From: a virus
DNA: 64,000 bases
Reading direction: 5' to 3' (one strand)
IMG/VR virus record: IMGVR_UViG_3300040801_001492
Span: 37,446-101,445 of that record
The notes under the pieces were generated by a model. It did not search any database, was not told where the DNA came from, and was given only the letters and a program-made list of their open reading frames with translations. This document shows positions 2,577 through 46,765 of this stretch, in pieces. Within the stretch, counting starts at the first letter, position 1, and each line of letters starts with the position of its first letter. The position numbers and the translations under genes are program-made.

Positions 2577-2590
2577 CTAAATATAAAACT

Positions 2591-3221: not shown

Positions 3222-3234
3222 AATATATATAATT

Positions 3235-11451: not shown

Positions 11452-11825
11452 AAAAAGAAAGAATTTTTGTTTATGGTACCTTACTAGAAGGTTGTGGTAA
11501 TCATCAATATTATCTGCGTGATGCTAAGAAACTAGGCGAACATATAACAGATTCACAATTTACTATGCTACATTTAGGTGGTTTTCCTGGAGTTATAGGA
11601 ATAGGTAATACAGCTATTAGAGGTGAAGTATATGAGATTACTGAAAATGAGTTTAGGGATATAGATGGTTTAGAAGGATATAATCCTAATAATCCTTCTT
11701 ATGGTCTGTATGATAGAACACAAATAAAAACTCCATGGGGTAATGCATGGATATACCTATATAATCATCGTGATAATCATCATTTTAATAAAATAACCTC
11801 AGGATCATGGAGAAACAAAGACTAA
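11448..11825 (+). CDS. Gamma-glutamylcyclotransferase-like protein (GGCT/AIG2), 125 aa
   Basis: The N-terminal FVYGTLLEG motif and the catalytic Glu in IDGLEGY (E76) define the GGCT fold. It releases a gamma-glutamyl group as 5-oxoproline from gamma-glutamyl amines or peptides. Length fits the family. It overlaps the C26 gene by 4 nt upstream and the ATP-grasp gene by 19 nt downstream. Its presence next to ligases points to a pathway that uses gamma-glutamyl bonds, for making, editing or recycling the product. Confidence 0.85.
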   Translation: MKKERIFVYGTLLEGCGNHQYYLRDAKKLGEHITDSQFTMLHLGGFPGVIGIGNTAIRGEVYEITENEFRDIDGLEGYNPNNPSYGLYDRTQIKTPWGNAWIYLYNHRDNHHFNKITSGSWRNKD

Positions 11826-15471: not shown

Positions 15472-15477
15472 AATATA

Positions 15478-27274: not shown

Positions 27275-30200
27275 TTAGTATGGACTTTTCTGAAACTCAT
27301 CATATAGTTCGAATAGTCGTTCTAACTGTGCACCACCATATGCCCATTGTATAGTATAATAAAAGGCTGGTGTCCTATCATAAGGACTATTTTCACCTAA
27401 TATAAAGTCTCTTCCTTCATCGAAAGTATTAAATAGTGTCTGTTTAGTAGATGATAATAGTGATGCTAATGGAACAGGATTCTGCATCAGCCTAAGAAAC
27501 TCATCGGGATTCCAAATAAACATTAATTCAGAATCACCTTTAGCAACCATTTTAAATAGTGTACGTGTAAACCAGTTATCCATATATCTAGGTTCACCAT
27601 CATCACCATCGCCTCCTAAGAAGAGCAACAATGCAGCGAAAGATAATATAGTTCTTATTTCAGCCAACATAGCACGTATCTGTCCTTCCTTCATCTCAAG
27701 AAAATCATCAAAAGTAACTTTACCTTGTAGTTCAGGATTTTCTAACATCCATTGCTGGTATCTACGCTGTGCTCTTCTAATGTTAGTACGTACTCTACGT
27801 GTCTTACCTGTAGGGTCAGTATATACTTCACCTAATACATTACGTAATCCACCAAAGGTTATTAGGTCTAAAGTAGCTTTAGCTAAATTAGGTGCTAATA
27901 CCTGTCCTATAAATTCGTTAAACTTAAAGCCTGCCTGTAATTCACTATCACTTAATTTGCTTAGTTCATCTTTACCAGGTATAATCTCTGAAAAAACAGC
28001 TCTAAACCTACCCCAACGAGCAGCTTGTATATGGTCATCAAAAACTAAATCACCAAACCGTTCACGTACAATACCAGGCATCCACGATTTAAAAGCCATC
28101 ATAACATTTAAAGCTAAAGACATATCTGACTTAGCTATATCTTCCTGTGATAATGAACCAATAGTATTATCAGATGTTCCTTTAACAGCATTTCTAAATT
28201 GTATGTAATTATCTAAGTTTAATCCATCAATAGATACCTTACCTGTTTCTTCATTATACTCAACAATATCTATAAGAGGTTTTACATCTTTAACATCCTG
28301 TCCAGGACGGTTTAATCTTACTAGATTACCGTCTTTATTTATACCGTAATTATGCATCATAGCTATAAGAGTAGCATCGTTATGATTTTCATCAACCTTA
28401 CGTAAAGGCATAAATAATGTTCTGGGGTCAATAACTTTACTTACTCTATTAATAGATTTTTGAAACTTTAACCTATCTATAGGGTCTTCTGCATATACAT
28501 CAAATAATTTACAAGCAGCTTTTACACGTTTATAATCAGTTGCCATAAGCTTATATGCTTTATTCATCATATCACGTGTATAAGACATACCTTTTAATCC
28601 CTCAAAATAAGCAGTTACCTTACTAGCTATAAAAGCACCTGCAGAAGGTATTATAGCAAAAGATAAAGCACGCTTACTATGATACTGCTTAAGGTCGGTT
28701 ATTAGCTTAACTGTATTAATCTTCTTAGACAAACTCTTTTCTTTAAACTTAATACCGTATAAATAATAGTCTATATAGTCTTCTAATAACTTATACGTAT
28801 CTGTAGAAAATCCTACTTTAGTAGCTATCTTTTTTAGTACTCCTTTAACACGTCTACCTGTCTGTGTAGTTATTTCGGTACCTTCCTGTGCTGCAGAAGG
28901 ATTACCTATCAGTCCTTTTAAACCTAATATAGTAGGCTCTATCTCAGACATCAGCTCATAGTTCTTTACTACCTCAGCAAAAGCTATTAACGAAGATGAT
29001 AGGTTATATGATTTCTGCATCAGGTCTATTTCACCGTTTCTATTACGTAAAGGATTTTTAAACAATATAGGTATACGCCTTTGAATACCATTCTCATCAT
29101 AGTCAGCTAAGTATATATCTTCTTCACGTACCTTGAATGAATCAAAAAATTCTCTGAACATATGCATTACACCACCTCGTTCACGTCCTATATAGTCGGA
29201 TGCTTCTTTTCTAATATTAGGAATAAAGTTAGGCGGTAATTCAGATATATTATCTATCTTAAGAATATGCCTGAAAGCATTCATATATTTGATATAAGTA
29301 CTATAGTAGCCTAATAAGGGCTTATTCGCTTCCAAATATTTATATTCTTCAGACTTATATCTATCTTCTACTTCGGGTTTAATCTTAAGATAAGTAGTAT
29401 TATTAGGATTAATCCATGCTTTATCTGACTTAAGTAAATTATTATTTTCTACCCACCTATTTAATCTATTTTTATACTCTCTCTCCTCTGGGAATCGTGC
29501 CTTATAAATAGCCTGTATTCTCTCATATCGTTGTTTATAAGTCTCCTCATTGAACTTCTTTTCATCTATATCATAAATAGTCTTAAGTATAGGTGCTCCT
29601 TCCTCAGGAGACATAAGACGTGCTTTATTAACCTTATCCCAAAACTCTTTATCATATTTACTAATAAGATTACCTGTTTCAAAGTTAATCATCTTATCAA
29701 AAGCAGCCTGTCTGGATAAACCATTATTAGATGCCCATTGAAATAAAGCTTTCTCTTTATCAGCAATCTCCTCACCTACAGACTTAACATATTGTCTTGT
29801 TTTATGTATCTGTGTCTGTATAAGCTTCCATACCTGTTTAAATACAGGGTTTTGTATTTGTGATATACGGTTAAAGTTCTGTGTAATAAAGTTTAATTCT
29901 TTTTGTGGAGCTAAACCACCTTTAGGTGTCTTATATTCGCTGGGTATATCTTCTAATATACGTTGTTCAATAATATCATGTAGTTTAGCCTTAATAGAAT
30001 GAACAGCACTAAATGCTTTATCTCGCTTTTCGTTTAATACTTCATACAACTCAGGTTCACGTTTCTGCATATCTTCGAAGTAATCAAGGGTATTATCCAT
30101 TAATTCAGTATATACATTAACCTCATCATATAACTCTTGTAACTCACCTATTTCAGGATAATTATTATTAAGTTTACCATCGGGTGTATATTTATGTTCA

Positions 30201-31351
30201 GCTAAAGCCTGTTCTGTCTCATCTAATATCTGATAGATAGATATGAATATATCTGAAATATCAGCTTTCATAATAGTTTTTTGAGTAGCACGTGTAATAG
30301 ACTTAATCTTAGCTTCTAACCGTTCTCTTTCTAATATAGTAATACCTGATTCAGACTGTTTCTTCCTAAGCTTATTAACCAGCTTCATCTGCTTTTCAAG
30401 AAGAGTATTCAATCTCTCATATTCAGTTAGCTCACCTGCTATAGGCACCTGTCTTAAATATCTACTGGCATATTCACCTATCTCTACCTTATCTAGCTCA
30501 GTAGAAAAGTAGTTATAATCACCTTGTAAATCTTTACGCAGCGGTTTAAGTCGTATATGTACAGGTATAAGACGGTTCTCTCTGAAAAACTTCACGCCGA
30601 ATCTTTCCTCATAAATACGCTTATATTCAGACATATTGAGATTATAATCCTCTATATCAGAAGTACCCATAAGCTCATCAATAAGCTGTTCACCTTTGTA
30701 ATTATCTCCGTGGGAATGTTTTATCTTGAAATCATAATTAATAGCTGAACCATCTGAAAACAATGCAAATACATCAGTTGTACCGCCTCTATTATGTACA
30801 GGATCAATGACTCCATTCTCAGAATAGATATGCACCTGTCCTTTAGGATCAATTTTCTTTTGTATATCTTTAATCTGCTTAACTACATCCTGTACACCTG
30901 TTTTTAAAGCCTCCAGATGATTATCCGACATCCTAAATATATCATGATTAAGTGCTTCTTTACGTATCTCAGTTAGATTACCTTTATTATTACCATAGAA
31001 ATCTATTAACTGACTTAATACTCCATGGAAGAATATACCAGCTTTACGTTTCTTAATATTATCAGGTCTTTGGTTTATCTGCTTGGCTTTGATAGCACCA
31101 CCTACTCTACTCTGCCATGCTTTCTTACCTAGCTCAGATACTCGCTTCTCTATAGGTACATCAAAGAAAGTATAATATGTATCATCAGGATCATCTTTCC
31201 TATGGTGTAGTATTAGATTCTCCTTAACATAATCTATACGAGCTTTTATCTGCTCTACAGAATCATCAGGCTTAGGATTAAATAATGTCCCATAGTTTCT
31301 AACAATATTCCTTACTTCTTCAGCACTTCTATTGGTTTCTATACAACTCAT
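27275..31351 (-). CDS. Large virion cargo protein with PD-(D/E)XK nuclease-like domain, 1358 aa
   Basis: This is the last gene of the late operon and starts 8 nt after the giant polymerase gene. Around residues 105-260 it has GIFFHGVLSQLI, then GGTTDVFALF (Asp193), NYDFKIKH (Asp207, Lys209) and a following Q/E helix, the ordered core of a PD-(D/E)XK nuclease. The rest is helical with coiled coil near 310-430 and a hydrophobic stretch (SFAALLLFLGG) near the C-terminus. By position it corresponds to the crAss-like cargo protein next to the RNA polymerase, and is probably ejected into the host. Nuclease activity is inferred from the motif. Confidence 0.7.
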   Translation of the reverse strand: MSCIETNRSAEEVRNIVRNYGTLFNPKPDDSVEQIKARIDYVKENLILHHRKDDPDDTYYTFFDVPIEKRVSELGKKAWQSRVGGAIKAKQINQRPDNIKKRKAGIFFHGVLSQLIDFYGNNKGNLTEIRKEALNHDIFRMSDNHLEALKTGVQDVVKQIKDIQKKIDPKGQVHIYSENGVIDPVHNRGGTTDVFALFSDGSAINYDFKIKHSHGDNYKGEQLIDELMGTSDIEDYNLNMSEYKRIYEERFGVKFFRENRLIPVHIRLKPLRKDLQGDYNYFSTELDKVEIGEYASRYLRQVPIAGELTEYERLNTLLEKQMKLVNKLRKKQSESGITILERERLEAKIKSITRATQKTIMKADISDIFISIYQILDETEQALAEHKYTPDGKLNNNYPEIGELQELYDEVNVYTELMDNTLDYFEDMQKREPELYEVLNEKRDKAFSAVHSIKAKLHDIIEQRILEDIPSEYKTPKGGLAPQKELNFITQNFNRISQIQNPVFKQVWKLIQTQIHKTRQYVKSVGEEIADKEKALFQWASNNGLSRQAAFDKMINFETGNLISKYDKEFWDKVNKARLMSPEEGAPILKTIYDIDEKKFNEETYKQRYERIQAIYKARFPEEREYKNRLNRWVENNNLLKSDKAWINPNNTTYLKIKPEVEDRYKSEEYKYLEANKPLLGYYSTYIKYMNAFRHILKIDNISELPPNFIPNIRKEASDYIGRERGGVMHMFREFFDSFKVREEDIYLADYDENGIQRRIPILFKNPLRNRNGEIDLMQKSYNLSSSLIAFAEVVKNYELMSEIEPTILGLKGLIGNPSAAQEGTEITTQTGRRVKGVLKKIATKVGFSTDTYKLLEDYIDYYLYGIKFKEKSLSKKINTVKLITDLKQYHSKRALSFAIIPSAGAFIASKVTAYFEGLKGMSYTRDMMNKAYKLMATDYKRVKAACKLFDVYAEDPIDRLKFQKSINRVSKVIDPRTLFMPLRKVDENHNDATLIAMMHNYGINKDGNLVRLNRPGQDVKDVKPLIDIVEYNEETGKVSIDGLNLDNYIQFRNAVKGTSDNTIGSLSQEDIAKSDMSLALNVMMAFKSWMPGIVRERFGDLVFDDHIQAARWGRFRAVFSEIIPGKDELSKLSDSELQAGFKFNEFIGQVLAPNLAKATLDLITFGGLRNVLGEVYTDPTGKTRRVRTNIRRAQRRYQQWMLENPELQGKVTFDDFLEMKEGQIRAMLAEIRTILSFAALLLFLGGDGDDGEPRYMDNWFTRTLFKMVAKGDSELMFIWNPDEFLRLMQNPVPLASLLSSTKQTLFNTFDEGRDFILGENSPYDRTPAFYYTIQWAYGGAQLERLFELYDEFQKSPY

Positions 31352-31359
31352 AATAATTT

Positions 31360-34300
31360 TTAATCAATTCCACACATTTGTTCAATCTCTCCTTGTGTTA
31401 GTCCGTCTATGAAGGCTAACTTCTCATACCTACCTAAATAAGCTTTATCAGGATAATACTTATCAAAGTTTCTCAGTAAATCTTCAGAAGTAAAACCTGT
31501 ATTATCAGGTTCTTTCTGTATCTCTTTAGCATTAGTTTCTGCTATACTTTCTTTTATAGCTGAACTATCCAGTCCAGATTCTTTAGTTACACGAAGAACA
31601 TATCTACCCCTAGCCTCACCCGGTCTTTCTGTTAGCATAGTTTTAATGTTAGATATATCATCAAATCTTTGTTTAACTAACTCAGCAGACCTGCTATCAT
31701 CAAAATATTTAATCTTAGTGTTGTTAACTATTTGGTCAGCATTAAAGTTATTCCATAATAATATGCCATTATTAGATGTTTTCATCATCCTATCAACATC
31801 AGTAAAAAAATTTAAATCAGTAATAGGTTCATTTAATGTTAAATAATCAACAAAAGAAGTAACATCTCCTTTATTAGTTTGTTTCTGCATATCTAATAAG
31901 GCTTGTCCTAATGCTTCACTAATTTTATTATCTTTTATTAGTTGTTTTACTTCTTTAAGAGATACTCCTTTAAATTGAAATTCAGATGGAGTATACAACC
32001 CCATTTCTGTTTGTCGTAATTGTTCAGTTTCATAACGATAAAATTTATCATATTTCTGGTCGTCTTCATGTTCTAATCGCCATATTTTACGTTTTTCTTC
32101 CATAGGAAGTTTTCGAAACTCTTTTTCTATTTCACTACGTGTCAGATTTGCAATTACCATATCATCTAATGCCTGATACATATCTACCTCATCTAATAAA
32201 TAATCCTGGAATAATCCCATCATCATCTCATCACTACTAATATCTGTTTCTGTTACACCAACCACTTCATTAATATAAAGAGTAGATGCTGTCAATACCT
32301 GTCCTAAAACTGTATCATCAACTATTGTTTTAGTTGTATTAGCAAACATACTCTGGAAGAAGTTTATAATATCGTTGACTATTCTGGCAAATATGTTTTG
32401 CTTATTATCAACAACTTCTTCTTCAGTAAGAGCAGGAATAGTTTTTAATTCTTCCTGTACTTCTCTATTAGTAAGTGAATATGATATAAGCTCTATAGGG
32501 CTATTTACACGCTTTTTAAAGTCTTCTGACAACTGTTCTTCATAAGACCTTACATGCTTATATAAACTGTTCATACGCTCTTTAAAAGCGTTATTATTGA
32601 TATACTGATAAAGAGTAGCACCGTGTAGTACTTCATGTAGTACAGTTTCTTCAAAAGCATCTGTATTAAGGTCACTACGATAATGAACAGTAGGATTAGT
32701 ATATCCTCTACCAAAAGTAAAAGCACCATCATACTCAAATTCTTCAGCAGCCTGCTCATTCAGTTTCCAAGGTATAGTAGTTATCTGTTTAAGGTTAGTA
32801 GCTAAATCTTTATATAAATCATTTTCGCTCTCCTTTTCTATAATACGAAGCATCCTATTAACACTAACACCTTTATCTAGATACTTCCTATACTTATTAT
32901 CACCTGTAGTATTATCTGCATTTATCTTAGTAGGATAAGGCAATCCTTTGCTTTTCTTAGCTTCAATCTGTAATAGCTCATTAACATTTTTTTCATCATA
33001 ATCCTTAACATCTTCACTGCTAGCTAATATATCTTCTGCATTAACAGTAGCAAAAGCAGTAGGATCATAGTTATTAGCAGGAAGTATACTCTTTACTTCT
33101 GATGTCTCTGAAGGATAAAACTCAATAAACCTATTTTGTTCACCTAGCTTAGGTATAAGTTTAAATGTTCTACCGCTAACACGCTTATAAAGCAGTACTT
33201 CTCTAGCAGCTGATTCATCTTTACCTTTATAGTTAGAAGGATTTTCTACATATACATCAGCAGTAAAGTATTCCTTACCATCATAGAATCCTTTAGTATC
33301 TTCGTATATCTCATATCTATCTTTTATATTCTTACCTTTATACCAGAAAGCAAAGCTTGTACGTGGTATAAGTTTAGTATTATAAGCATTATTTTGATAC
33401 ATCTGTGTAAGGAAATTATTTATTACTTTCTCTTTATTCTCCATACTTAAACCGTTATACATACCTATCACCTGAGAAGCAAATGGCATGAATATTCTGT
33501 TAGGTATAAGATGTAGATAGGATAATGGACTACGTTGCATACCATTCTGCCATAGACTATGGAAGATGAGATGTTCTACAAACTGAGCCATATCAGGAGT
33601 AGCTTCATTCCATAATGAATATATATCTCCTTCAATAGCATCAGACTCATGTACATCATAATTCTTTTGGAAGGTAGTTACACTGTTTACTTTAGATGTA
33701 GTCTTAGTCTTATGTACCTTACTATTAATAAGAGGCTTAAGCTCTTTTAAAGCTATATGTTCAGTATTAGTTCTTTCAAGCTCTAACAGCCTATGAGGTA
33801 TAGAGTTATCACCTGTAAATAATCCTTTATATATATCCTGCAATTCGAAGGTATCTGTAGAAACGGCTGCAGTAATCAAGAATGTAAAGAACTGTAGTTT
33901 GACATTATTACTTATCTTATCAACATCTTTAGGATCATTCTTTAATCTCCAATCCTTCAACTCTACCGATAGGTTCTCAAACATCTCAGTAAGCTGTGGG
34001 TCTTGTAGTAATAGTGACGACCATGCATACATATTAGGTATATTCTCACGTGTCCATGCCTGTTCAGTAAGAATAGAATTATTAAGAGCTTCTTCTATAG
34101 AAGGTATATCAAATAGTTTACTGATAGACCTATACCTATTGAAGTTCTCTGCTACTATACCAGTATAGTGCTTAGCTAATGTTGAGGTTGAGTCAGGACG
34201 TAATATCCTATTAACAGAAGACATCTGCCTACCTAATAGCTGATAAGACATAAAGTTATCTAGTGCTTGTATCTGTAGCTCAACAGACTCATTATTAATA

Positions 34301-37300
34301 TTACTAAGTTGTTTCTTTGTTAAATACTGGTAATTATATTGTTTCTTCCGCTTATTATACTTATCTATTACTGCATCAGGCACTGGTTGGTCACCATAAG
34401 ATAGTATCTCCTCAATAGCTGATGTTAGTGTTTCAGTATATCTCAAAGGTACGTTCTTAAGCTTAGACTTGCTTGTGTTCTTCTTATTAACCAGTTCAGT
34501 TAATGCAGCAGCATACCATTCATCCCTATTCTTTCTCTTAGAAGATGAGAACTTCTTCTTGCCGAAGTAATCCTTATAAGGAGCATGGTTATAGAAAGGC
34601 TCTGTCATATGAAAGTTCATATTAGCCCTTCTTATCTTAAGGTAATCTTTAACTACATCCGAAGTAAATAGATAAGCGATAGATTCTATCCCTACACCTT
34701 TCTTTATACCTGTTCTATTAAGAGCAGCTACAGCATTGAAAGTAAATGAATCTGTTAATCTAAAGATAAAGTCATCTTTTCTAACATCAACAAAAGCATT
34801 TAAAAACTCAGAGAAGTTATCACCTATATTATAGCCATCACTATCTTCTAACAGTCCTACATTATAACCAGTATCAGTCTCCTGTCCACTAAAGAACAGA
34901 GGTATAAGATTATTTAACCTAATAGGATTGCTTTGTGTAAAAGCATGTGTAGTGTTCTGTACAGCACCTAACGCTATATTTTGTTTACCACCCCACATCT
35001 GTAATGCTTTCTGTGAATTAAACCAGAAGGCTAATAGGTCAGCCTTATTTTCACTGTGCATAGCCTCTTCAACAGGAGTAAGCTTACGTCCTTTATATGC
35101 TTTATCTACAACTTTCTTAAGGTTATCTGATGTATTAGGTCTAACTAAATCTTCAAACCTACCAGGATGTAATAGTGTCTTAAATATTATCTCATTGATA
35201 CGGTTTTGCTTATTCTTATTGCTGTCTTGACGTACAGGACGCTTCATCCTATCTTTTAAATCATACTCATTCAGATAAGTAGTTAGTTTATCAACGTCAA
35301 AGTCAGAACCTGATTTAACTGTTATCTCAGGTGGTAACACAACCTTAGCACCATGATAGTGAGGTAAGAACTCCACTATCTCCATTGATTCTAATGAATT
35401 AATACTCTGACTAGGTATTCTATTAGCTGGTATATTAAGCATCTCAAAGAAATCTTCGCCTAACAATTTAGTATCTCTTTCTCTGATAGCCACATTAAGA
35501 ACAGTAAGACCACCTAATGATTTAACCCAAGGAATCCATGCTGTAGGCAAAGAAACCATAACCTGCATAGCTTTTATTTCACCACCTTCATTACGATAAA
35601 ACTTAAGTTTACGATTACCTTCTCTATATCTCTTCAAATCATCATATAGTAATGAAGATTCTTGTATAAACATCTCACCGAAGTTCTTACGCTTGATAAC
35701 ATTATTCGCTACAGAAGCAATAAGTATTTCCTCTATCTTATCACTGGTAGTAAGCAAATCAAAGATAGTATGTTCTGAGTTCATTACTATCTCAATAGCA
35801 TCAATAACATTATTAGGCATAAGCCTATTCTCAAACATATCAACTATCTTAGACTTGAACCTATCTTTATTCTCCTTAGGAAGAGTATATAAGCCAGATT
35901 CTTCATTATAAGCGATACCTAAATCATCTAGTAATGTACTTCTATTGTCAGCTACTATCTCATTAACTAATTTCTTATATTCAGATATTTCAGGCATCAG
36001 GTCTTCACCTACACCTTGAACAGGTACACCTAGTTCCATCAGGTTAGCAAACTCAAGCTTATTTCTTTGCACTGAGTTAGTTACTTTACCAGACTCTTCA
36101 TCATGCACATCCAGCTGTATACCAAAATCATCATAGCTTAGTGATTGAATAGTGTATTCATCATCTTCTAATTGAGGAATACTACCATCAGGATTAGTTA
36201 ACATAGTAATCTTCTCAGCACTGGTAAAAGTAAGTATACCTACCTGTGAACTGAGCATATTTAGATATGTATTGAATATTTCACCATCAGGTATAGCTGA
36301 AGGAAAGATAGGTGCAGTAGATGTTTTAAAATACTGATTAACAAAGATACCATCCTGATTAGCTATTCGACCAAAACCCATAGGTTTAATAATAGGTAAG
36401 GCCGCTAAGTCAGCTATATCAATAACTTCACCTCTATACATAGGTTCAGTAGGTACTTTATTATTTGTATGTTCACTAAAGACACCATCAGTAAAGACAG
36501 ACTCATCAATATCAAATATTGTCGATGGTTTATCTAATAACCTTAGAGCAAACTTCTGCATCTCATACTGATAAGTACGCTCCTGTGCTTCGCCCCACAT
36601 ACCATTCCTTACTAATATATCTCTATATTCATCCAGAGTAGCGTATGACTGTGCATCGGTAGACATTATATCTTTATAAGCATCATGTATAGTAGATAAA
36701 TCTTTATTATTGACTACTACATCATCAACTACAATCTTATCAACAGTACCCATAACACCATCAGGATTAAGTCTATCACGACCATCCAAACGTGGATATA
36801 GCTCATTGAGAAGAGTATTTACTGCTAATGAGTTGTTTGTTCTGTACTTAGTAGAAGCAGCACCTGTTGTACGTGTATGGAACTCATTGAAGTCTTTGTA
36901 TGATGCTATATCACCAAAGAATAGTTTAAGCTGTTCAGTAACACCTACATACTGGTTATATAATGCCGTAAGCAGCATACGATTAAGGTCACCTTGTGGT
37001 AAGGCACCTGAATAATCAAATTTCATACCCTGCTCTTCTAACCATTGTGGGTCAATACCAGGCACATAATTACGTTCTTCTATACCAGTAGAAAAAGTTT
37101 TCGTTTCTGTATAAATAATATTATCTTCACGGAGAGAATATAAAGTTTTCTCCATCAAATCATCTATAAACAAATCAAATGAACCATCAAGATAGTTACT
37201 ATACTTATTAATAAATTGGTCAGCTAATCCAACTAGATATTCAGGATTAGTTTGTGCTTCTGTTGTAAGGTTATGGTCTACATTGGTATTAAAAAAATCT

Positions 37301-40300
37301 TCTAAAGCAGGAGGCTTTAGCCTAACCTTATCAGGAGCCATACGATAGATAAACTCAAAAGCACGTAATGTCTTTATATTATCTCTATAGAAACGCAGGT
37401 CACCACCAAAGTTTACTGGGTCTGCAAAATATGCAAATGAAGTAACTAGCTCGTCTTTTAGATAATTAGCTAACATCTCTTTGAAGGCATCTCTTGATAC
37501 GTTATCTACTGGTCTACCTACTTTAAGAGCATAGACTGGCTTACGTTCAGCAGCCTGTAATAAAGGAATATAACCTCTTAATATAGCATTGAAAGAAGCT
37601 CTCTTGTAGTCACCATGATTAGCTTTATTCATATCAGAAGAGTTACCTTGCTGTGATTTAACACCTTTAAGAACAGCTAATTCTATCTTCTGATTATTAT
37701 TTAATACTGCATCTACCCATTGTGAATGTAGAGTAAATAGGTTACCTCTTGTTCCGTCATAAGGCTGTAGATGTTCAACAGCTTCGGGTATAACAACTTC
37801 ACCGCCTTCTCTATAGATAGAGTTAAGTGCGTTTACTGTAGCTGATATATTTGAATTAAGAGCTATACTGTACTCAGGGTCACCATTCTGGTTAAAGTAC
37901 ATCAGGTCACTATCATTCAAGAAGAAGTTCTGTGCATAGTCAACTAATGAATCCAGCTCTTTCTGATTCTTAATAACACGCTTATCATATAGGTCTGATA
38001 AAGCTATATGTTTATTTTTTATCTCACTAACTTCTCTATATAAAGTATCTAGATAATCATTTATAAGCTGCTTATTGTAAATATCTTTCTTGTTATCAGA
38101 TATAAGAATACCTAACTTATCTAATACCTTAAGATTTTCATCTAATCTATTATCCGAGTCTTTATTATATCTTAAGTTAGCTTTATAGTCTTTTTTAAAT
38201 TCTTCTATGTTAATCTGATAATTACCATTACTATCTCTTGATGAATAGGAGTTTTTCTTACCAACAGATACCTGTGCATTATTCTGCCACTTATTCTTAA
38301 TCAGGTAGCCTTGCTTATCAGATGCTGCATTAAGTAGCTGAAATGAACCATCGTGATTAAATAGTGCTATCAGAGGAACATTCTTATTATTAGCAAATGA
38401 CTTGAAGAATGCATTCTGTAGGTTAAATTCAGAACGTGATAGTCCTTGTTCACCTAACCTTAGCCTTGTGATAAGAGTATCTAATTCAGGAAACTTAGGT
38501 ATTAATAATTCCAGCTTTCTATGCATCTCATCTAAAGTATACACATTAGCAAGTTGGTTCTTTAATATGTTTAATACACGCCTAAAGGCTGCTGTTGACT
38601 TAGCACCGTATTCAGATATGACAGGTGTAGTCTTACCATTAATATAGTTAACATCAGTTAACCCTGCTATTAACAATCTTACTGGTTCAGGAACAATTTC
38701 ACTTAGGTCTACTTCATAGCTTTCTTTATATGAATAGGTATCACCTACTCTATCATCTTCCTCAGTAACTTTAGCTAGCTGTATACGATACTGCTTAAGG
38801 AAACGCTTATGTTCCTTAACAAAGTCAGTCCAGTTATTAACAATAGTATCAGCCATAGGCTTACTTTCAGAAACACTATCCTGAAGAAGCATATACTGAA
38901 CTTTTATATCTCTGTATATATCACTTACATTACCTTCTAGGTTATATAAAGCTTCTGCTCCATACTTATCAGAACCAAACAGCCTCTGGAAGAACCTAAA
39001 GTTTATATCTCTTAAGAAGATATAGGACTCTTTCTCCTTAACATTAGCTATCCTATCTAAGGTAGTACGTGTCTCTCTCTGTGGTGTTACAAAACTACCC
39101 ATACGAAGACGCTCAAAGCGTTCAATCATAGGTAGGTCTGCTTTACGGTTTATATTAAGTACGTTTAATATAAAATCTAATAGCTTAGTAAACCATGATT
39201 TCTTAAGTTGTGCTTCCTCTGATTTACCAAACCTATAATGCTGAGGAGCTAACATATAGATACGAAATTCTTCAGCAAGAATTTCTTCTACTTCAGTATC
39301 TGTTAGTTCTTCATTACCTAATCTTTTCTTTGTTAGCGTATAGAGATTATTTACTTCCTCATCAGACATAAAGACCTGACTAAAGACGTGCCACGCCTCA
39401 TGTATAACAGTACCTTTAGCGGCATCGCTGCCTATCAATACTAATGAACTATCAACTAGCTTACCCCATACATCAGGTAAAGCATCAGTTACTTCTATTG
39501 GGAAGTTAGGAAATCTCTCTCTAAACCATGCTAACTGCTCATCTATCTGTTCACGTTCATAGTTATCTACTATACTACGTGACCTATCAAGTTGATTATT
39601 ATTTATCTTAACAAAAGCCTTAGCCTCTTTCTTAGCTGCATCTAAGTCTTGATATGTATCTAACAAGATTTTTTGCTGAGCATCGCTTAATGAGCCCCAT
39701 GCATCTTCCTCATTAACATCATCAACCTGAGTCTTCTCTTCATGTGCTAACGTACCATCAGTTAATCCTGATGTTTCTTGAGGAGCCTTCTTTTGGAATT
39801 TCTTCATATCTATCTTACCAACAGCTTTAGGCTTTTCTTCCTTTTCTTTAGGTTTTAGAAAACCTTGTAGTTTAGCTGCGTTCTCAGCAACCTTAGTTTT
39901 CTTATCAATTTGCTTCTGTTCGGCTCTATTCTCTTTAACTTCACCGGGTGTACTGAGCTGTATAGACTGGTTAATATATAATGGATTATTAACTAACTGA
40001 TAAGGATTTTTTACATCTGTCTTTCTTACATTAACAGTACCTTTAGGAGTATTACTCTTCTTATTTGAGAATAAAAATCCTTTATAACCACCGTCTTTAG
40101 TATTCCATGTCTTAGTAGTAAGCTTTTGTTCACCGTTGACGGTAATAACATCATACTCAATAAAAGTATTATTATCTTTAAGCAGCTTATTATTAAAATT
40201 CCACATCTTATTAGACAGGAACTGCTCTAATGCTGCAGTAGCCTCAACATCATTAATACCTTCAGGTGTCATCTGATATTCACCAAATACTACACCTCTA

Positions 40301-43300
40301 ATACCCGTCTTCTGTCTCTTACCAGATTCGTAAGGACGTAAAAAGAAAAACCTATATCTTGAATCTTCTGAGTTCATGTAAAGAGTATTCTGTATGAACC
40401 TCTCTATACCGCTTGCCTCAGAGGGATTTTCTATAGCATACTTTATAAGATTAACAAACCTCTTAACCGAATTAGTTTCTCCTAATGTCTTAGGTTTAAT
40501 AGCCTCATACCTATTCATAAACATAGCATAGGCATAACCACTCCTAAGACCATACTTAGCACCACTAATATAACGCTCTGTATGCTCATTATATAGATGA
40601 TCGCCTTTCTTATGTGTAGCTATAGTAACAGTCAGCTCATTAACATTATCTATACCAAAAGCAGATAATACATCCTGCTCTTGTAATAAATTTTCACCTT
40701 GTTTATTTTTTACAACTTTTACACCAGGATTGATATGGCTAATCTCAAAGGTATATGTCTTATTATACATATCTTCTCTGAGAGCAGTATATTCCTTGAT
40801 AGACTCAGCTAACACTTCATTTGCATATGTTTCAGCATCTGCATTAGACGCACCTGGATTCTTATCTTTAAAAGATTCTTTTAGTTTATCTAACGAAAAT
40901 CTTTCCTTACCTAATCCAGATGTAGTTGTTTTTGGTAATGGGAAGGAAGCATATATTATATTTTTTAAATTATCAACATCTAAACGACCCGATTCACTTA
41001 TTAAGGTAGGTTTACCATTCTCTCTGGTATAAACAACCATCTTAATATCTTCCTTAACAGATGTGGGAATCTCTGAGCCATACTTATTTACAGCCTCATC
41101 ATAAGTAACAGTTTTCTTTTCTGTTTTTAATTTTACACTACTATCATAAAACTTAAGCTGCTTACGTAAGATATTATCCGGCTCTAGTTGAGCAACCTGA
41201 TCAAAAGAGACTGACTTAAGAAGATAGAGATGTTTCTTATTATTATCTACTTTATAAGCATAGTTATTAACGAATGAATACCACCTACCTAAGTCAGGAA
41301 AATCTTTTATATCATTTTGATTGCCTTGAGATACTAGCCACGAATCCATACCAAAGAAAGGATGCTTAGCACTTTCATGCTCTTTAGCTACTTCTTTCTG
41401 TACTTCATGTGTCTCTGTTAGGTACTGCTCAGGTGACTCCTTAGCACCTTTCTCCTGCTTATCACGTATGATAGACGTTTCTTTCAAAGCAGTCTCATAT
41501 AGCTTCGTAATGCCTCCTAATAGCTTTGTTGCATTCTGCAGCTGCATAGAGTATTCTCTACTGAGAGGTTGTAATTCTTCTAAGTCATTATTTATTCTAT
41601 CTACTATAGCCTGTTCATCAGCTATCATAGCTTCTAGTCTTGCTATATTTTCTGGTAACCGTCCTAAGCGTTCTATAGCTTCGGGGTCAATCTTCTCAGC
41701 CTGTATACCTATATTACGCCATTGTGATGGTGATAATGTTTTACCAGCACCTAGCTTTTCATATTCACTACCACTAAGTTTTTTCTTCTGTGACATAGTA
41801 GTAGCAATAAGATTACCTATACGGTCTTCTTGCTCTATAGGAGTAAGAGTATTATCTGCTCTTATATCAGCTACCTGGTCAGCTATACCTAAGATATTAG
41901 CTGCTGTAGTATAATACCCCTTAAGAAGACCACGTAGCTTATTAAGGTGCTTACCTGTAATCTGCAGTCCTGCTCTACTAAGTTCTATCTTATCATCTGT
42001 ATCAGTAGCTAACTCTTGTAGCTTACTTCTAATATCATCAAATTGAGAAACATATTCTAATCCTTCTCGCTCTACATTCTCTTTCTCACGCTCTAACAGC
42101 TCTATCTTCTGCCTGAAAGCAGCTACACTATTTTCAAGTGTATTAATATTTTCTTGTATAGTAGTAGCTTCTCTGAGAATCTCATCCATATTCATAAACA
42201 TCTTATGAACAGTCTCTCCTTGATTACGTAGAACTTTAATAAGCTGTACCCTATCTGTCTTCTTAGAAGTGAGTAACGAACCTGTCTTTTTCAGTCCATC
42301 TAACTCTTTCTTAGCTAGTTTATCTGTCTGTTCATATAGATATTCTAAATATTCCTGTGCCCTTAGTATACGTTCTTCACGTGACTGTATCTGATTCTTA
42401 TAATCACTAATAAGAAGATTAATACCTCTAACAAATGTATCACGCCTAAGTTCGTTCTTTACTTCCTGAGGCGTCTTAATTATATCTATTCTATCTATTT
42501 GATAGCCTGCACCTTTATATTGATATGTATTATCACCGTTTATATAAGCAGTAGATAAACTAGGCTTACCTTCAACAACATTACCTTCAGTATCTAATTC
42601 ATCAACCTTAGTAGCTACTACTTGCATACTACCTCTAGTTGAAGGATCATCTGTTTTTACACGTACAGTATGCTTAAGCTTATTACCGTCCTTATCCGTT
42701 AATGATAATAGCATCTCACCTGAATGAAGTATAGGTACACCACCTACCTCACCAGCTTCAGTAGCTTGGTTAAATAATCCTTGCAGATTCTCGTCTAACT
42801 TAAGAATCTCATTCTGCTTATGTGTCTTACCTGCTAAATCTGAATCAGCATTTTGTATATCTTTAGTTTGGGTAGTAAACTCATCATATCTCTCCTGTAG
42901 CTTACTCTTAGTATATAAGTCACGTAATGCACCATAAGACTGTTCTAACGACTGCCTATGAGCATCAATATTTTCTATTGCAATATTTATATCATTGATT
43001 TCTGTCTGTGACAGCTTAGATTTATTATTCTTCAGCTCCTCTTTGAGGTCAGTAACCATCTGTTCAGTATAACCATCTTCAGTTGAACTGATAGATATGT
43101 TACCTGTATTAGCTTTATAGTTAGATAGGTTATTAAGAAGCTCATTAATACGCTTACTATGGAAGTCAGACATAAACTCCAATGATAACTTCTCATGCTT
43201 AATCATATTAGAGAATTGATTAAACACATCTTGCTGTCCTTTCTTAGGTTCTATGTTAAGAGTAAAAGGATGGTTACTCTCTACTCGTCTATGTATCTTA

Positions 43301-45099
43301 TCTAACCTCTCAGCAGTATCTACTAGTTCTTTACGTATTTTATCTACATTACCCACAATACCTTCTTCTTCCAGTTGCTTAGCATCAACCTCAGCCAAAT
43401 GGTTAATATGTGCTTTAAGAACATCTAATCCACCTTCAACCTGTAAGAATGGAAGCATATAGTTAGAGTTAATCATAAACTTAGCCTGTGCAGCCGCTTC
43501 AGCATCATTACGCTCCATAGCACCTATAGCCATCTGACGCATTAACTCCATCTTCATAAAAGATTCTCCAGCCTGCTTAACCTTAACAGGGTCTATCTTA
43601 TAACTACCATCTGCCTGTACTATCTTCTGTCCAGCTAACTTATGTCCTTCAGGATAAACTTCAGCTAAATCATTTATTGTTCTTGTATAGTTAAGGTAGT
43701 TTTCTCTCATTAGAGTTTGTAAACCAGGTGCATCCTTACGTTCTTGTTGACCAAAGAACCGTCCTAATGCTCCAGGTTGACGTGCTTGCTGTCCTTTAAG
43801 TACTCTCTCTTCCTGACGTATATCACGTGCTGTCTGAAACATACCCATACCACCACCTAAAACAGTACCTAAGAAGATACTCTTTTGCATCTCTACATCA
43901 GTAAGGTTATCTACATAAGCCTTGAGAGTGTTTATTAAACTACTGGCTAATTCTCTATCTTCACCTTCAGCAGCTTGTTTAATAGAAGCTTTACTGGCTG
44001 CATACTGCATACCTTCTTCCCAAAAGCCTTCACGTACTAAGTTTTGTAAAGCTGTCTTAGTATATCTGCCTGCTTGCTGTCCTTTAGTTAGTGGATTGAA
44101 TTGTGCTAATACTTCAGCAAAGTCTTCACCGAGTACTCTGCTTAAAGCACTTTTCTTAGCTCCTCTGGATATAGCGGTTGCTGATTTAGCAGTAGGACTG
44201 AAAGCATTAAACAGCCATTTCTGCTCGAATACATTAGAAGCTAATAGTATTCCAAAGTTTTTATTTAATGTACCTACAGCTGCTTCACCTGCTAGCTCAG
44301 GATTATTATACTGAACCATAGCATCTTTATATGCCTCTCCTGCTTCTGCAGCCGATTCAAACAATGTATTAAGTGTAACAGCTAAAGCATCATTAGTATA
44401 CTTAGCCATATTACCAGCATTAAGCCCAACCTTACCAGCTAACTTAGCTCCCTTACTACCAGTAGTAAATGATTTACGAATAGCATCACTGGTCTTCATA
44501 AGACCTGTTAATCCTTCACCTACTTTTAAAGCTCTTACAGCCTGACCCGGTGCTAACATAGCCATTAAGAAACCTACACCATCAGCACCTTCATTAGCCC
44601 AAAATTGAGAAGAAAATATATTATCTAATAAACTACCTTCACTGATAGCTTTCTTAGCAAATACAGGAAATCTATCCTTAGCTGATTCTTCTATATCTTC
44701 AACAGAGTTTATCCAAGCATTATCCACCATACGACCTATCTCACCCGCATCAAAACCTGTGGCAGCCCAATCAACGGCTCCTGTTAAATATCCAGGCATT
44801 TTAGCTATCTCAGATGTAGCTTTAATAGCTATTCTAGGTACAAAAGTAGCCCATCTCTGTCCTCCTGTTTGTGCCTGTGCTAATCTCTCAGGCACATCAT
44901 ACGCACTATATAAAGGCCCCAGTCTTCTAGCAGTTGACCTATGTATTCCCTGTGTAGGCTCAACTCCAGGCATAGAACCATAAGAAGCTAGTTTATTTAC
45001 ATCTAGATTTAAATCTTGTACTACTTTATGGAATACATCAGGATTAAATTTAGTATTTGATTCCTGTTGTAATTTTTTGGTGGATTCGTATAAAGCCAT
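31360..45099 (-). CDS. Giant virion RNA polymerase polyprotein with two zincin motifs, 4579 aa
   Basis: At 13.7 kb this is the largest gene. Its catalytic RNA polymerase loop is SGSDFDVDKL, with three Asp at 3266, 3268 and 3270, matching the DFDxD metal site of crAss-like virion polymerases. They are packaged and injected to transcribe early genes. The first 1000 or so residues are Gly/Ala-rich hydrophobic segments and then long coiled coils. HEAWH (1900-1904) and HEVLH (4155-4159) are zinc-protease motifs on either side of the polymerase core. The phi14:2 enzyme is about half this length, so extra domains are fused here. It follows a cargo gene and precedes another. Confidence 0.88.
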   Translation of the reverse strand: MALYESTKKLQQESNTKFNPDVFHKVVQDLNLDVNKLASYGSMPGVEPTQGIHRSTARRLGPLYSAYDVPERLAQAQTGGQRWATFVPRIAIKATSEIAKMPGYLTGAVDWAATGFDAGEIGRMVDNAWINSVEDIEESAKDRFPVFAKKAISEGSLLDNIFSSQFWANEGADGVGFLMAMLAPGQAVRALKVGEGLTGLMKTSDAIRKSFTTGSKGAKLAGKVGLNAGNMAKYTNDALAVTLNTLFESAAEAGEAYKDAMVQYNNPELAGEAAVGTLNKNFGILLASNVFEQKWLFNAFSPTAKSATAISRGAKKSALSRVLGEDFAEVLAQFNPLTKGQQAGRYTKTALQNLVREGFWEEGMQYAASKASIKQAAEGEDRELASSLINTLKAYVDNLTDVEMQKSIFLGTVLGGGMGMFQTARDIRQEERVLKGQQARQPGALGRFFGQQERKDAPGLQTLMRENYLNYTRTINDLAEVYPEGHKLAGQKIVQADGSYKIDPVKVKQAGESFMKMELMRQMAIGAMERNDAEAAAQAKFMINSNYMLPFLQVEGGLDVLKAHINHLAEVDAKQLEEEGIVGNVDKIRKELVDTAERLDKIHRRVESNHPFTLNIEPKKGQQDVFNQFSNMIKHEKLSLEFMSDFHSKRINELLNNLSNYKANTGNISISSTEDGYTEQMVTDLKEELKNNKSKLSQTEINDINIAIENIDAHRQSLEQSYGALRDLYTKSKLQERYDEFTTQTKDIQNADSDLAGKTHKQNEILKLDENLQGLFNQATEAGEVGGVPILHSGEMLLSLTDKDGNKLKHTVRVKTDDPSTRGSMQVVATKVDELDTEGNVVEGKPSLSTAYINGDNTYQYKGAGYQIDRIDIIKTPQEVKNELRRDTFVRGINLLISDYKNQIQSREERILRAQEYLEYLYEQTDKLAKKELDGLKKTGSLLTSKKTDRVQLIKVLRNQGETVHKMFMNMDEILREATTIQENINTLENSVAAFRQKIELLEREKENVEREGLEYVSQFDDIRSKLQELATDTDDKIELSRAGLQITGKHLNKLRGLLKGYYTTAANILGIADQVADIRADNTLTPIEQEDRIGNLIATTMSQKKKLSGSEYEKLGAGKTLSPSQWRNIGIQAEKIDPEAIERLGRLPENIARLEAMIADEQAIVDRINNDLEELQPLSREYSMQLQNATKLLGGITKLYETALKETSIIRDKQEKGAKESPEQYLTETHEVQKEVAKEHESAKHPFFGMDSWLVSQGNQNDIKDFPDLGRWYSFVNNYAYKVDNNKKHLYLLKSVSFDQVAQLEPDNILRKQLKFYDSSVKLKTEKKTVTYDEAVNKYGSEIPTSVKEDIKMVVYTRENGKPTLISESGRLDVDNLKNIIYASFPLPKTTTSGLGKERFSLDKLKESFKDKNPGASNADAETYANEVLAESIKEYTALREDMYNKTYTFEISHINPGVKVVKNKQGENLLQEQDVLSAFGIDNVNELTVTIATHKKGDHLYNEHTERYISGAKYGLRSGYAYAMFMNRYEAIKPKTLGETNSVKRFVNLIKYAIENPSEASGIERFIQNTLYMNSEDSRYRFFFLRPYESGKRQKTGIRGVVFGEYQMTPEGINDVEATAALEQFLSNKMWNFNNKLLKDNNTFIEYDVITVNGEQKLTTKTWNTKDGGYKGFLFSNKKSNTPKGTVNVRKTDVKNPYQLVNNPLYINQSIQLSTPGEVKENRAEQKQIDKKTKVAENAAKLQGFLKPKEKEEKPKAVGKIDMKKFQKKAPQETSGLTDGTLAHEEKTQVDDVNEEDAWGSLSDAQQKILLDTYQDLDAAKKEAKAFVKINNNQLDRSRSIVDNYEREQIDEQLAWFRERFPNFPIEVTDALPDVWGKLVDSSLVLIGSDAAKGTVIHEAWHVFSQVFMSDEEVNNLYTLTKKRLGNEELTDTEVEEILAEEFRIYMLAPQHYRFGKSEEAQLKKSWFTKLLDFILNVLNINRKADLPMIERFERLRMGSFVTPQRETRTTLDRIANVKEKESYIFLRDINFRFFQRLFGSDKYGAEALYNLEGNVSDIYRDIKVQYMLLQDSVSESKPMADTIVNNWTDFVKEHKRFLKQYRIQLAKVTEEDDRVGDTYSYKESYEVDLSEIVPEPVRLLIAGLTDVNYINGKTTPVISEYGAKSTAAFRRVLNILKNQLANVYTLDEMHRKLELLIPKFPELDTLITRLRLGEQGLSRSEFNLQNAFFKSFANNKNVPLIALFNHDGSFQLLNAASDKQGYLIKNKWQNNAQVSVGKKNSYSSRDSNGNYQINIEEFKKDYKANLRYNKDSDNRLDENLKVLDKLGILISDNKKDIYNKQLINDYLDTLYREVSEIKNKHIALSDLYDKRVIKNQKELDSLVDYAQNFFLNDSDLMYFNQNGDPEYSIALNSNISATVNALNSIYREGGEVVIPEAVEHLQPYDGTRGNLFTLHSQWVDAVLNNNQKIELAVLKGVKSQQGNSSDMNKANHGDYKRASFNAILRGYIPLLQAAERKPVYALKVGRPVDNVSRDAFKEMLANYLKDELVTSFAYFADPVNFGGDLRFYRDNIKTLRAFEFIYRMAPDKVRLKPPALEDFFNTNVDHNLTTEAQTNPEYLVGLADQFINKYSNYLDGSFDLFIDDLMEKTLYSLREDNIIYTETKTFSTGIEERNYVPGIDPQWLEEQGMKFDYSGALPQGDLNRMLLTALYNQYVGVTEQLKLFFGDIASYKDFNEFHTRTTGAASTKYRTNNSLAVNTLLNELYPRLDGRDRLNPDGVMGTVDKIVVDDVVVNNKDLSTIHDAYKDIMSTDAQSYATLDEYRDILVRNGMWGEAQERTYQYEMQKFALRLLDKPSTIFDIDESVFTDGVFSEHTNNKVPTEPMYRGEVIDIADLAALPIIKPMGFGRIANQDGIFVNQYFKTSTAPIFPSAIPDGEIFNTYLNMLSSQVGILTFTSAEKITMLTNPDGSIPQLEDDEYTIQSLSYDDFGIQLDVHDEESGKVTNSVQRNKLEFANLMELGVPVQGVGEDLMPEISEYKKLVNEIVADNRSTLLDDLGIAYNEESGLYTLPKENKDRFKSKIVDMFENRLMPNNVIDAIEIVMNSEHTIFDLLTTSDKIEEILIASVANNVIKRKNFGEMFIQESSLLYDDLKRYREGNRKLKFYRNEGGEIKAMQVMVSLPTAWIPWVKSLGGLTVLNVAIRERDTKLLGEDFFEMLNIPANRIPSQSINSLESMEIVEFLPHYHGAKVVLPPEITVKSGSDFDVDKLTTYLNEYDLKDRMKRPVRQDSNKNKQNRINEIIFKTLLHPGRFEDLVRPNTSDNLKKVVDKAYKGRKLTPVEEAMHSENKADLLAFWFNSQKALQMWGGKQNIALGAVQNTTHAFTQSNPIRLNNLIPLFFSGQETDTGYNVGLLEDSDGYNIGDNFSEFLNAFVDVRKDDFIFRLTDSFTFNAVAALNRTGIKKGVGIESIAYLFTSDVVKDYLKIRRANMNFHMTEPFYNHAPYKDYFGKKKFSSSKRKNRDEWYAAALTELVNKKNTSKSKLKNVPLRYTETLTSAIEEILSYGDQPVPDAVIDKYNKRKKQYNYQYLTKKQLSNINNESVELQIQALDNFMSYQLLGRQMSSVNRILRPDSTSTLAKHYTGIVAENFNRYRSISKLFDIPSIEEALNNSILTEQAWTRENIPNMYAWSSLLLQDPQLTEMFENLSVELKDWRLKNDPKDVDKISNNVKLQFFTFLITAAVSTDTFELQDIYKGLFTGDNSIPHRLLELERTNTEHIALKELKPLINSKVHKTKTTSKVNSVTTFQKNYDVHESDAIEGDIYSLWNEATPDMAQFVEHLIFHSLWQNGMQRSPLSYLHLIPNRIFMPFASQVIGMYNGLSMENKEKVINNFLTQMYQNNAYNTKLIPRTSFAFWYKGKNIKDRYEIYEDTKGFYDGKEYFTADVYVENPSNYKGKDESAAREVLLYKRVSGRTFKLIPKLGEQNRFIEFYPSETSEVKSILPANNYDPTAFATVNAEDILASSEDVKDYDEKNVNELLQIEAKKSKGLPYPTKINADNTTGDNKYRKYLDKGVSVNRMLRIIEKESENDLYKDLATNLKQITTIPWKLNEQAAEEFEYDGAFTFGRGYTNPTVHYRSDLNTDAFEETVLHEVLHGATLYQYINNNAFKERMNSLYKHVRSYEEQLSEDFKKRVNSPIELISYSLTNREVQEELKTIPALTEEEVVDNKQNIFARIVNDIINFFQSMFANTTKTIVDDTVLGQVLTASTLYINEVVGVTETDISSDEMMMGLFQDYLLDEVDMYQALDDMVIANLTRSEIEKEFRKLPMEEKRKIWRLEHEDDQKYDKFYRYETEQLRQTEMGLYTPSEFQFKGVSLKEVKQLIKDNKISEALGQALLDMQKQTNKGDVTSFVDYLTLNEPITDLNFFTDVDRMMKTSNNGILLWNNFNADQIVNNTKIKYFDDSRSAELVKQRFDDISNIKTMLTERPGEARGRYVLRVTKESGLDSSAIKESIAETNAKEIQKEPDNTGFTSEDLLRNFDKYYPDKAYLGRYEKLAFIDGLTQGEIEQMCGID

Positions 45100-45100
45100 A

Positions 45101-46765
45101 TTACTGTTGAGTTGTTAATGCTAATTTATTATAAAGAGAAGGATTATTTCTTATAATTTGTATATATGTATTATACATATCAGGATTAGATTCTAATAAA
45201 GTTGATAAATAATTAACAAAAGAAGGTAAAATACTTGGTTTTAAATCTGATATATATCCTACTGTTTCTGCTACAGTACCTGGGTCTTGAACAAAAACAC
45301 GTGCTGATTTAGATTCATCATCTTTTGTTGTACCTGTAATACCTAACATAAGACCTGCTTCTGGATTCATTGCAAATTCTTGAACTTGAATATCATCTTC
45401 TATTTGTTTTAAATTATCTTTGCTAGTTTTTTCTACAGGTTCAAAAGCTTCCTGATCTCTTAATATACTAAACCCTTTCTGCATGGAACTATTAATTTGG
45501 GTATTTATTTTTTTAATATCTGTAATCATATCAGGATTAGCAGAAGCTATGTCGCTAAATTTCCAAGTCATTATACGTGTATCAGGACTACCATATCTAT
45601 CTTTCATTTTATCTACTAAACGCCTTCTTAAAGCATCGCCTGTAATTTGCTTTTGTTCTATATCACTTAATTTAGATGTAATTACATCTCCTATTCCTGG
45701 AATGTTACCAAATAAGGCTTTTGATGCAATTAATTGTGAAAACTTTTGTGAATCTTTTCTTACTTCCATCAGGTCATCCACAGAACTAATATCTTCTAAT
45801 CCTAATTCTTTACCTAATTCTCTAGCAGCTTCATTAGCTTCAGTTCTCCAGGCTGGATTAGTTATAAATTCCTTATCTTTTATATCTATACCAGCATATC
45901 CAGCTGGTATAATTGGATTAGCTCCTTCTGGTACATTATCTGCTTCTCTTGCAGCTATAGGAATATAATCAGGATTCTGCATATAATCAATTCTTGTCTG
46001 TCCTATAGCTGAATAAGCACCTTGCTGTATAGCATCCATTACTACATTCTGGTCTAGATTAGCTAACTCAGGCATACTAGCTTGTATTTGATTAACCATA
46101 GCCTGTCCTTCAGGAGTCTGTAGAAAGTCTCTAACCTGGTCTTCATCCTGAAAGCCATACTGTATAATAGATTGTATAAAAGGCTGATTAGCTGAACGTG
46201 ATAATCCAGCATCTCTTAGTGTTTTAGATAGATTACTAAATACTGCTTCTGAATTTTTAACAATATCATTCCTATTAATAGGAGTAAATCCAAAATCAGC
46301 TCCTTGCTGCCATTCATCAAAACCTACCTGAGCAGGATTCTTAGTTGATAGGAAGTTAGCACCTAACTGCTGCCTCATTTGATTATACTGGTCTACTGCT
46401 TGAACTTTTTGTTTGTTATATCTATAGAAAGGATGTGACCTTTCTTTGGCTATCATAGATACTAATTCAGGGGCTGCTGCACTATAATCACCTTTATATT
46501 TGTTTTGTACAACATCAGTAATACCTTCTTCGAAGTCTGATATTTTTTTCTCTAATAGATTAGGATCATAAGTCTCTAAATCACCTATACGTGCCTTTTC
46601 TTGAGCTACAGCACCTACGGCAGTATCAAAACGCTCTTGTCTGCCTGCTACAGCTTGTAAAAATTTATCTTCAGCTTCAGGATTATACATTGAATATATC
46701 TCTGATTCTCCTTGCTGTGCATACCTATAAGGATTATATCTACCTGAATAAAAGTTCTGTCTCAT
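45101..46765 (-). CDS. Virion cargo protein, 554 aa
   Basis: This is a Gln/Asn- and Ala-rich, largely helical protein. It begins MRQNFYSGRYNPYRY, then YNPEAEDKFLQAV, a start typical of crAss-like internal proteins. It lies between the 746-aa cargo gene, which it touches at one base, and the giant polymerase gene, one base away. It probably rides inside the tail or capsid and is ejected with DNA. No enzyme motif is seen. Confidence 0.65.
   Translation of the reverse strand: MRQNFYSGRYNPYRYAQQGESEIYSMYNPEAEDKFLQAVAGRQERFDTAVGAVAQEKARIGDLETYDPNLLEKKISDFEEGITDVVQNKYKGDYSAAAPELVSMIAKERSHPFYRYNKQKVQAVDQYNQMRQQLGANFLSTKNPAQVGFDEWQQGADFGFTPINRNDIVKNSEAVFSNLSKTLRDAGLSRSANQPFIQSIIQYGFQDEDQVRDFLQTPEGQAMVNQIQASMPELANLDQNVVMDAIQQGAYSAIGQTRIDYMQNPDYIPIAAREADNVPEGANPIIPAGYAGIDIKDKEFITNPAWRTEANEAARELGKELGLEDISSVDDLMEVRKDSQKFSQLIASKALFGNIPGIGDVITSKLSDIEQKQITGDALRRRLVDKMKDRYGSPDTRIMTWKFSDIASANPDMITDIKKINTQINSSMQKGFSILRDQEAFEPVEKTSKDNLKQIEDDIQVQEFAMNPEAGLMLGITGTTKDDESKSARVFVQDPGTVAETVGYISDLKPSILPSFVNYLSTLLESNPDMYNTYIQIIRNNPSLYNKLALTTQQ

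Follow-up and report, generated by a model that had tools for sequence, protein, structure and literature searches.

In crassviral phages, the virion RNA polymerase and the cargo proteins encoded next to it are nearly free of cysteine except at the breaks between their genes, and where neighboring proteins are fused, both of the junction cysteines are absent. In the window (the whole 64-kb stretch of DNA analyzed here, taken from a virus record of 101,445 bases), a giant polymerase of 4579 residues (522.5 kDa; positions 31360..45099, minus strand) has one single cysteine, C4576, three residues before its end (codon 31372..31374, minus strand). The next protein of the chain, with 1358 residues (157.8 kDa; 27275..31351, minus strand), starts with MSC and has C3 and C947; its Cys3 (codon 31343..31345, minus strand) is the proposed partner of C4576. 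An earlier note on this DNA had described the giant, and the cysteine was absent from it. We consider it probable that the fused giant is chained head to tail with the next cargo protein by a disulfide. With slightly less assurance, we also think that crassviruses package the proteins to be ejected as a single covalent thread of peptide links or redox-sensitive disulfide links, which would keep a fixed order and ratio, come apart in the host cytoplasm and admit extra links through a Cys residue at each end.

The giant is encoded by 4579 codons without a stop from an ATG start on the minus strand; read on the plus strand, the same span has many stops. As the earlier note had stated, the frame contains a DFDVD catalytic loop at residues 3266-3270 (35290..35304, minus strand). 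This is the sole DxDxD motif of the protein (GSDFDVDK), and its presence is not a matter of chance because the surrounding R..P....GSDxDxDK shows no variation in 33 relatives. Pfam and PHROGs searches gave no useful name for the giant, and phmmer with the whole giant found no match in the PDB; tblastn matched crassviral polymerases and g067 of phi14:2. Profiles, in contrast, did match the PDB. With an alignment (A1) that comprises five polymerase cores, phi14:2 gp66 was found, but gp66 is itself in this alignment, and the independent test is therefore a second profile (A6), which consists of the window giant and 32 environmental relatives without phi14:2; its sole match in the PDB was 6VR4, the structure of gp66, with an E-value of 4.9e-131. 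When the polymerase core was modeled (residues 2630-3790; 33730..37212, minus strand; pLDDT 83, pTM 0.82), Foldseek aligned it with 6vr4_A (E 7.1e-27, TM 0.64 for the query); cellular beta-prime subunits came next without significance, and no T7-type polymerase, and hence no T7-like single-subunit fold, was among the listed matches. With its conserved DFDxD loop, its relation to 6VR4 in sequence and predicted fold and its crassviral neighborhood, the giant can be assigned to the crassviral two-barrel virion polymerase family (gp66/gp50), and the profile and fold matches thus bear out the earlier designation as a virion RNA polymerase. Presence in the virion and polymerase activity are known for the homologues of phi14:2 and crAss001 only, the phage of the window being uncultured.

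The genome around the giant is crassviral, judging from its predicted proteins. It encodes a muzzle protein (49101..53498, minus strand; Pfam crAss_MUZ, 1.1e-164), ring protein 2 (CrAss_Ring_2, E 1e-21) and, as the upstream neighbor of the giant, a 554-residue homologue of cargo protein 2 that has no cysteine (45101..46765, minus strand; Pfam crAss_CARGO2, 5.3e-09); a family A DNA polymerase and ribonucleotide reductase are found on the other arm. The 1358-residue protein belongs to the group of phi14:2 g065 and crAss001 gp49, given that it matches cr108 gp52 (blastp 2e-73), which in turn matches crAss001 gp49. Its residues about 160-215 (GGTTDVFALF...YDFKIKH) resemble a PD-(D/E)XK nuclease, with a weak PHROG exonuclease match (0.014), and transcription-block proteins of other crAss phages have been reported to contain a PD-(D/E)XK-like nuclease. 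Also, genes for GGACT (gamma-glutamyl cyclotransferase), GATase_6 (glutamine amidotransferase) and Amidoligase_2 are clustered in the early arm (11448-16950), possibly as a peptide- or wall-modifying set.

In terms of length, the giant is indeed about twice the phi14:2 enzyme, as had been noted earlier (4579/2180, or 2.1 times gp66), and the reason is that a protein of the g067/gp47 type is fused in front of the polymerase and a tail of ~500 residues is attached behind it. The N-terminal cargo module (residues about 60-790; 42730..44922, minus strand) is homologous to phi14:2 g067 (blastp 1.5e-37, HMM 3e-73) and crAss001 gp47 (HMM 1e-13); on a profile in window coordinates, g067 maps to residues 67-787, and gp47 maps to residues 58-785 and 1814-1953. 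The RNA polymerase module (residues about 2126-4035; 32995..38724, minus strand) corresponds to crAss001 gp50 (2126-4035) and phi14:2 g066 (2635-3928), and the tail (about 4040-4579) was matched by none of gp47, g067, gp50 and g066. By homology, therefore, the giant unites in one chain a polymerase and a g067/gp47-type cargo protein that has a zincin domain. The module map upholds the earlier proposal that the extra length reflects fused cargo; the accompanying proposal of cutting before or during ejection gained no support. While no relative was found when viral contigs were scanned with the polymerase core or the C-terminal tail as single sequences, a scan with the alignment of polymerase cores found 251. 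The frame has a median length of 3960 aa (range 2329-6070) in 56 complete non-redundant relatives, and sizes of 3000-6000 aa are common for their fused polymerases; the same fusion occurs in cr118_1 of Suoliviridae (4946 aa), and giant RNA polymerases of up to ~6000 aa are described as a hallmark in a review (PMC10136315). Given this median, the fusions in Suoliviridae and the sizes in the review, the length of the giant is ordinary. The fusion reading is thus right but ordinary, cleavage is unsupported rather than excluded, and what is new is the pattern of terminal cysteines.

At the rate of 1.16% Cys in control frames, about 53 cysteines would be expected in the giant. We surveyed 63 clusters of relatives (80% identity) and 11 reference crassviruses, in which a Cys was scored as C-terminal within the last ten residues and as N-terminal at positions 2-10. 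All 22 upstream proteins have a C-terminal Cys, and so have 59 of 60 polymerases; 52 of 53 downstream proteins have an N-terminal Cys. An N-terminal Cys is present in every polymerase with a separate N-module (23/23) but in only 1/29 of those scored as fused, and this one (L073) is really a split locus misplaced by the length cut; the association between the split or fused state and the N-terminal Cys gives a Fisher p of 7e-14 with kinship ignored. The interior of the polymerases holds merely 39 cysteines in 234,098 residues. Among 93 control frames outside the chain, in contrast, N- and C-terminal Cys were found in 7 and 6, respectively. The separate upstream proteins are homologues of the N-module (hhalign 99.1%, E 2e-18; 1% for the control comparison with the polymerase core). 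In eight loci, furthermore, nine extra link proteins are inserted between the polymerase and the last protein; each has Cys at both ends, and the protein after the extra link begins with Cys in all eight readable cases. One series has four links in a row (L072: polymerase-C, C3-762 aa-C760, C3-300 aa-C300, C3-last).

Cysteine hence flanks each gene break and is found at none of the fused junctions, with one exception: L007, a member of the group nearest to the window, has a polymerase of 5420 aa without a terminal Cys, followed by a small frame that also lacks it. Another locus, L039, was rejected as an exception, since its Cys is present when the TTG start is used (TTG AGC AGT TGC). On the tree with corrected labels, the split or fused state of N-module and polymerase needs about three changes, two of which are forced; an estimate of 7-8 changes was discarded because the labels based on N-module detection were wrong for divergent or cut loci. 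In one large clade, the N-module break precedes the first zincin domain (see below), and in crAss001 and Rudgehvirus jaberico, it follows that domain; these breaks therefore arose separately. As far as the open-access literature shows, the rule is undescribed, in that we found no description of terminal-cysteine or disulfide-linked cargo there; an earlier mention in Drobysheva 2021 or Yutin 2018 is possible.

The reference crassviruses serve as natural experiments. In phi14:2, the cysteines (position/length) are C1797/1797 in g067, C3 and C2179/2180 in g066 and C3 in g065, and in crAss001, they are C2339/2341 in gp47, C5 and C2404/2412 in gp50 and C5 in gp49; the rule holds at both junctions of crAss001 though gp47 is encoded on the opposite strand. 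The same layout is seen in cr111, cr128 and cr85. On the other hand, cr118, cr4, cr6 and cr1, which share the fusion of the window, have the C-terminal Cys alone, followed by a Cys at 3-5 in the next protein. In R. jaberico, the fusion is between the polymerase and the gp49-type protein (4098 aa in all), and accordingly C2017/2018 is found on the N-module protein and C3 on the fusion, which has no C-terminal Cys. The chain frames of cr4_1 and cr6_1 (L101 and L105) have in-frame stops under table 11, with the Cys rule still holding; such stops are consistent with the stop reassignment known in Suoliviridae. In one further locus (L050, 7664-13249), the polymerase is directly followed by a 1862-aa protein of opposite orientation, which starts with MQC and has no other cysteine; this end of the chain is rearranged but conforms to the rule.

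The orderly passage of several folded proteins per particle, each of hundreds of kDa, through a tail of <50 Å is an open question for crAss001 (PMC10172136), and N4 ejection raises the same passage problem (PMC12633501). Constrictions of <50 Å require partial unfolding of the cargo. The ejection proteins of T7 and P22 and the N4 vRNAP are almost free of Cys, which fits their need to unfold and to traverse the envelope, and the crassviral chain retains cysteine only at the joints. We infer the following course. The giant would be made late and packed with the following 1358-aa protein, and neighboring cargo (the N-module, the polymerase, the gp49-type protein and any extra links) would be linked head to tail within the virion, each disulfide connecting the extreme C-terminal cysteine of one protein with the N-terminal cysteine, at about residue 3-5, of its successor. 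In the window, the fused giant would accordingly hang on the 1358-aa protein via C4576-C3. The giant would thread the tail N-terminus first, refold in the host and transcribe early genes; one protein in passage would pull the next through in a fixed order, and reduction in the host cytoplasm would free the chained proteins. Gene fusion would be an equivalent solution, a peptide bond replacing the disulfide. Against the thread, besides the exception of L007, is that disulfides normally do not form in the bacterial cytoplasm, so that the proposed bonds would have to form in or after assembly of the particle. Disulfides are indeed present in the tail of crAss001 virions (PMC10172136), and the accessible text of that study mentions none between the cargo proteins; at the biochemical level, we found no evidence of chain bonds.

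Other pairings of the terminal cysteines would be possible, either between ends of the same kind or with a different protein of the virion. Their flexible terminal positions, together with disulfides elsewhere in the virion (PMC10172136), would permit covalent bonds that make no linear thread, such as dimers through the C-terminal Cys or anchors to the portal, cargo protein 1 or another component. We regard such bonds as unlikely, however, because both junction cysteines are missing upon fusion at either junction (in the window, cr118, cr4, cr6 and cr1 at one, and in jaberico at the other), and because inserted proteins gain Cys at each end, which anchoring protein by protein would not predict; besides, the 554-residue cargo protein of the window and its counterparts in cr118 and cr108 have no cysteine. 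It is far less probable still that the giant is simply an ordinary long crassviral polymerase, with ejected proteins avoiding Cys and tolerating it at the termini. While the scarcity of Cys in the ejection proteins of N4, T7 and P22 agrees with mere avoidance, this leaves unexplained the near-universal Cys at the breaks between genes whose proteins share about 20% identity, the loss of both partners on fusion and the double-ended links; also, the other ejection proteins examined lack such a pattern, with a single cysteine, C2 of T7 gp14, and no cysteine in T7 gp15 and gp16 or in P22 gp7, gp20 and gp16.

The remaining alternative, a polyprotein that cuts itself by its zincin domains before packaging or after injection, concerns two HExxH motifs in the giant (at 1900 and 4155), which were absent from the earlier note. 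The first zincin-like metallopeptidase domain (residues 1785-2030; 39010..39747, minus strand) contains HEAWH (residues 1900-1904; 39388-39402, minus strand) with EEILAEEFR downstream; H, E, H and two downstream E are unvaried in 12 relatives, and the domain matches the C-terminal part of crAss001 gp47. It was rejected as a member of the N4/phage MPTase type (hhalign 5.6% against the N4 family). The second (residues 4149-4224; 32428..32655, minus strand; HEVLH at 32623-32637, minus strand) lies in the C-terminal tail and matches internal virion proteins of Pradovirus (T7-like) phages (HMM 2.5e-11), a family related to the zincin behind the N4 polymerase (hhalign 97%, E 1.1e-10). Via the Pradovirus proteins, it counts as an N4/phage-type MPTase domain; the N4 HMM applied directly to the giant was not significant (0.096), and Pfam MPTase gave no match in the giant. 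This relation to the N4-type family would suit a polyprotein, as would the processing of P1 DdrB, which has such a domain (PMC5512222). Nevertheless, the first zincin persists in crAss001 gp47 and cr108, where the proteins are separate or split elsewhere, and its role as a splitter of fused parts was therefore rejected; phi14:2 g067 lacks HExxH, no cleavage site is known, and the N4 vRNAP, which carries such a metallopeptidase domain, is packaged unprocessed (PMC5512222). A self-cutting polyprotein is thus distinctly unlikely, somewhat more so than bonds outside a linear thread.

The second zincin was found in none of the other sampled relatives, and the C-terminal tail of the giant was modeled poorly (pLDDT 38). 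After the polymerase core, the tails of relatives vary and include NADAR, AlkB-type 2OG-Fe(II), SLOG (YpsA), RecD-like helicase, RNase H, ASCH and, weakly, ART-PolyVal domains (L007, L016, L025, L029, L035, L040, L069, L078, L082 and L003), which are likely injected counter-defense or nucleic-acid functions fused to the polymerase. As a separate observation, g070, a tail protein of phi14:2 (L001, 8880-10661), has HExxH at 234 and 461, both weakly N4-zincin-like.

Compared with known systems, the window shares with phi14:2 the polymerase family, the core fold of gp66 (6VR4) and the gene order, with the N-module before and the g065-type protein after; in phi14:2, however, separate genes encode the N-module (1797 aa) and the polymerase (2180 aa), and a Cys pair flanks their break, whereas in the window, the two modules are fused, their junction has no Cys, and a zincin tail is added at the C terminus. 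The giants of Suoliviridae (cr118_1 gp14 of 4946 aa, cr4_1, cr6_1 and cr1_1) resemble the window in having N-module, zincin and polymerase in one frame with one C-terminal Cys and a Cys at 3-5 in the next protein, but the tails differ, being a RecD-like SF1 helicase in cr118 and an N4-type zincin in the window. The cargo of crAss001 has homologous modules but is made of three proteins, with gp47 on the opposite strand; gp47, gp50 and gp49 were detected in virions by mass spectrometry (PMC10172136). The N4 vRNAP (gp50) is likewise a giant single-chain polymerase that is ejected and has behind it a zincin of the second type in the window, yet its polymerase is of the unrelated T7 type, and its 3500 residues have no cysteine and form no terminal-Cys chain. 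Polyvalent proteins (PMC5512222) are also large, injected and multidomain with MPTase and accessory domains, but the hub in the window is a two-barrel polymerase, and that study names neither crAss phages nor Cellulophaga. Finally, P23-45 gp96 (PMC10770324) has a DFDGD polymerase in an injected protein of 5002 aa with a metallopeptidase domain; it is a fusion with the tape measure of a siphovirus, its polymerase is N-terminal, and the homology to the window is, as far as tested, only in the polymerase.

Crass-like phages include some of the most abundant human gut viruses. If true, the disulfide thread would be a possible new mode of delivery that answers the order, ratio and release of the cargo together; it might also take along any protein with a Cys at both termini, which is suggested by the double-ended extra links and by the range of C-terminal domains among relatives. 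Even if the thread fails, the near-perfect coupling of terminal Cys to gene breaks would still need explaining.

Two further observations concern the polymerase block of relatives. Small thioredoxin-like proteins are encoded near it in four loci (L102, L103, L107 and L004) and might make or break the proposed disulfides. In cr108_1 (L004, 16371-16671), the polymerase gene is broken exactly at the catalytic loop, with the first frame ending in GSD and the second aligning just after it; the interruption is probably an intron in the DFDxD codons.
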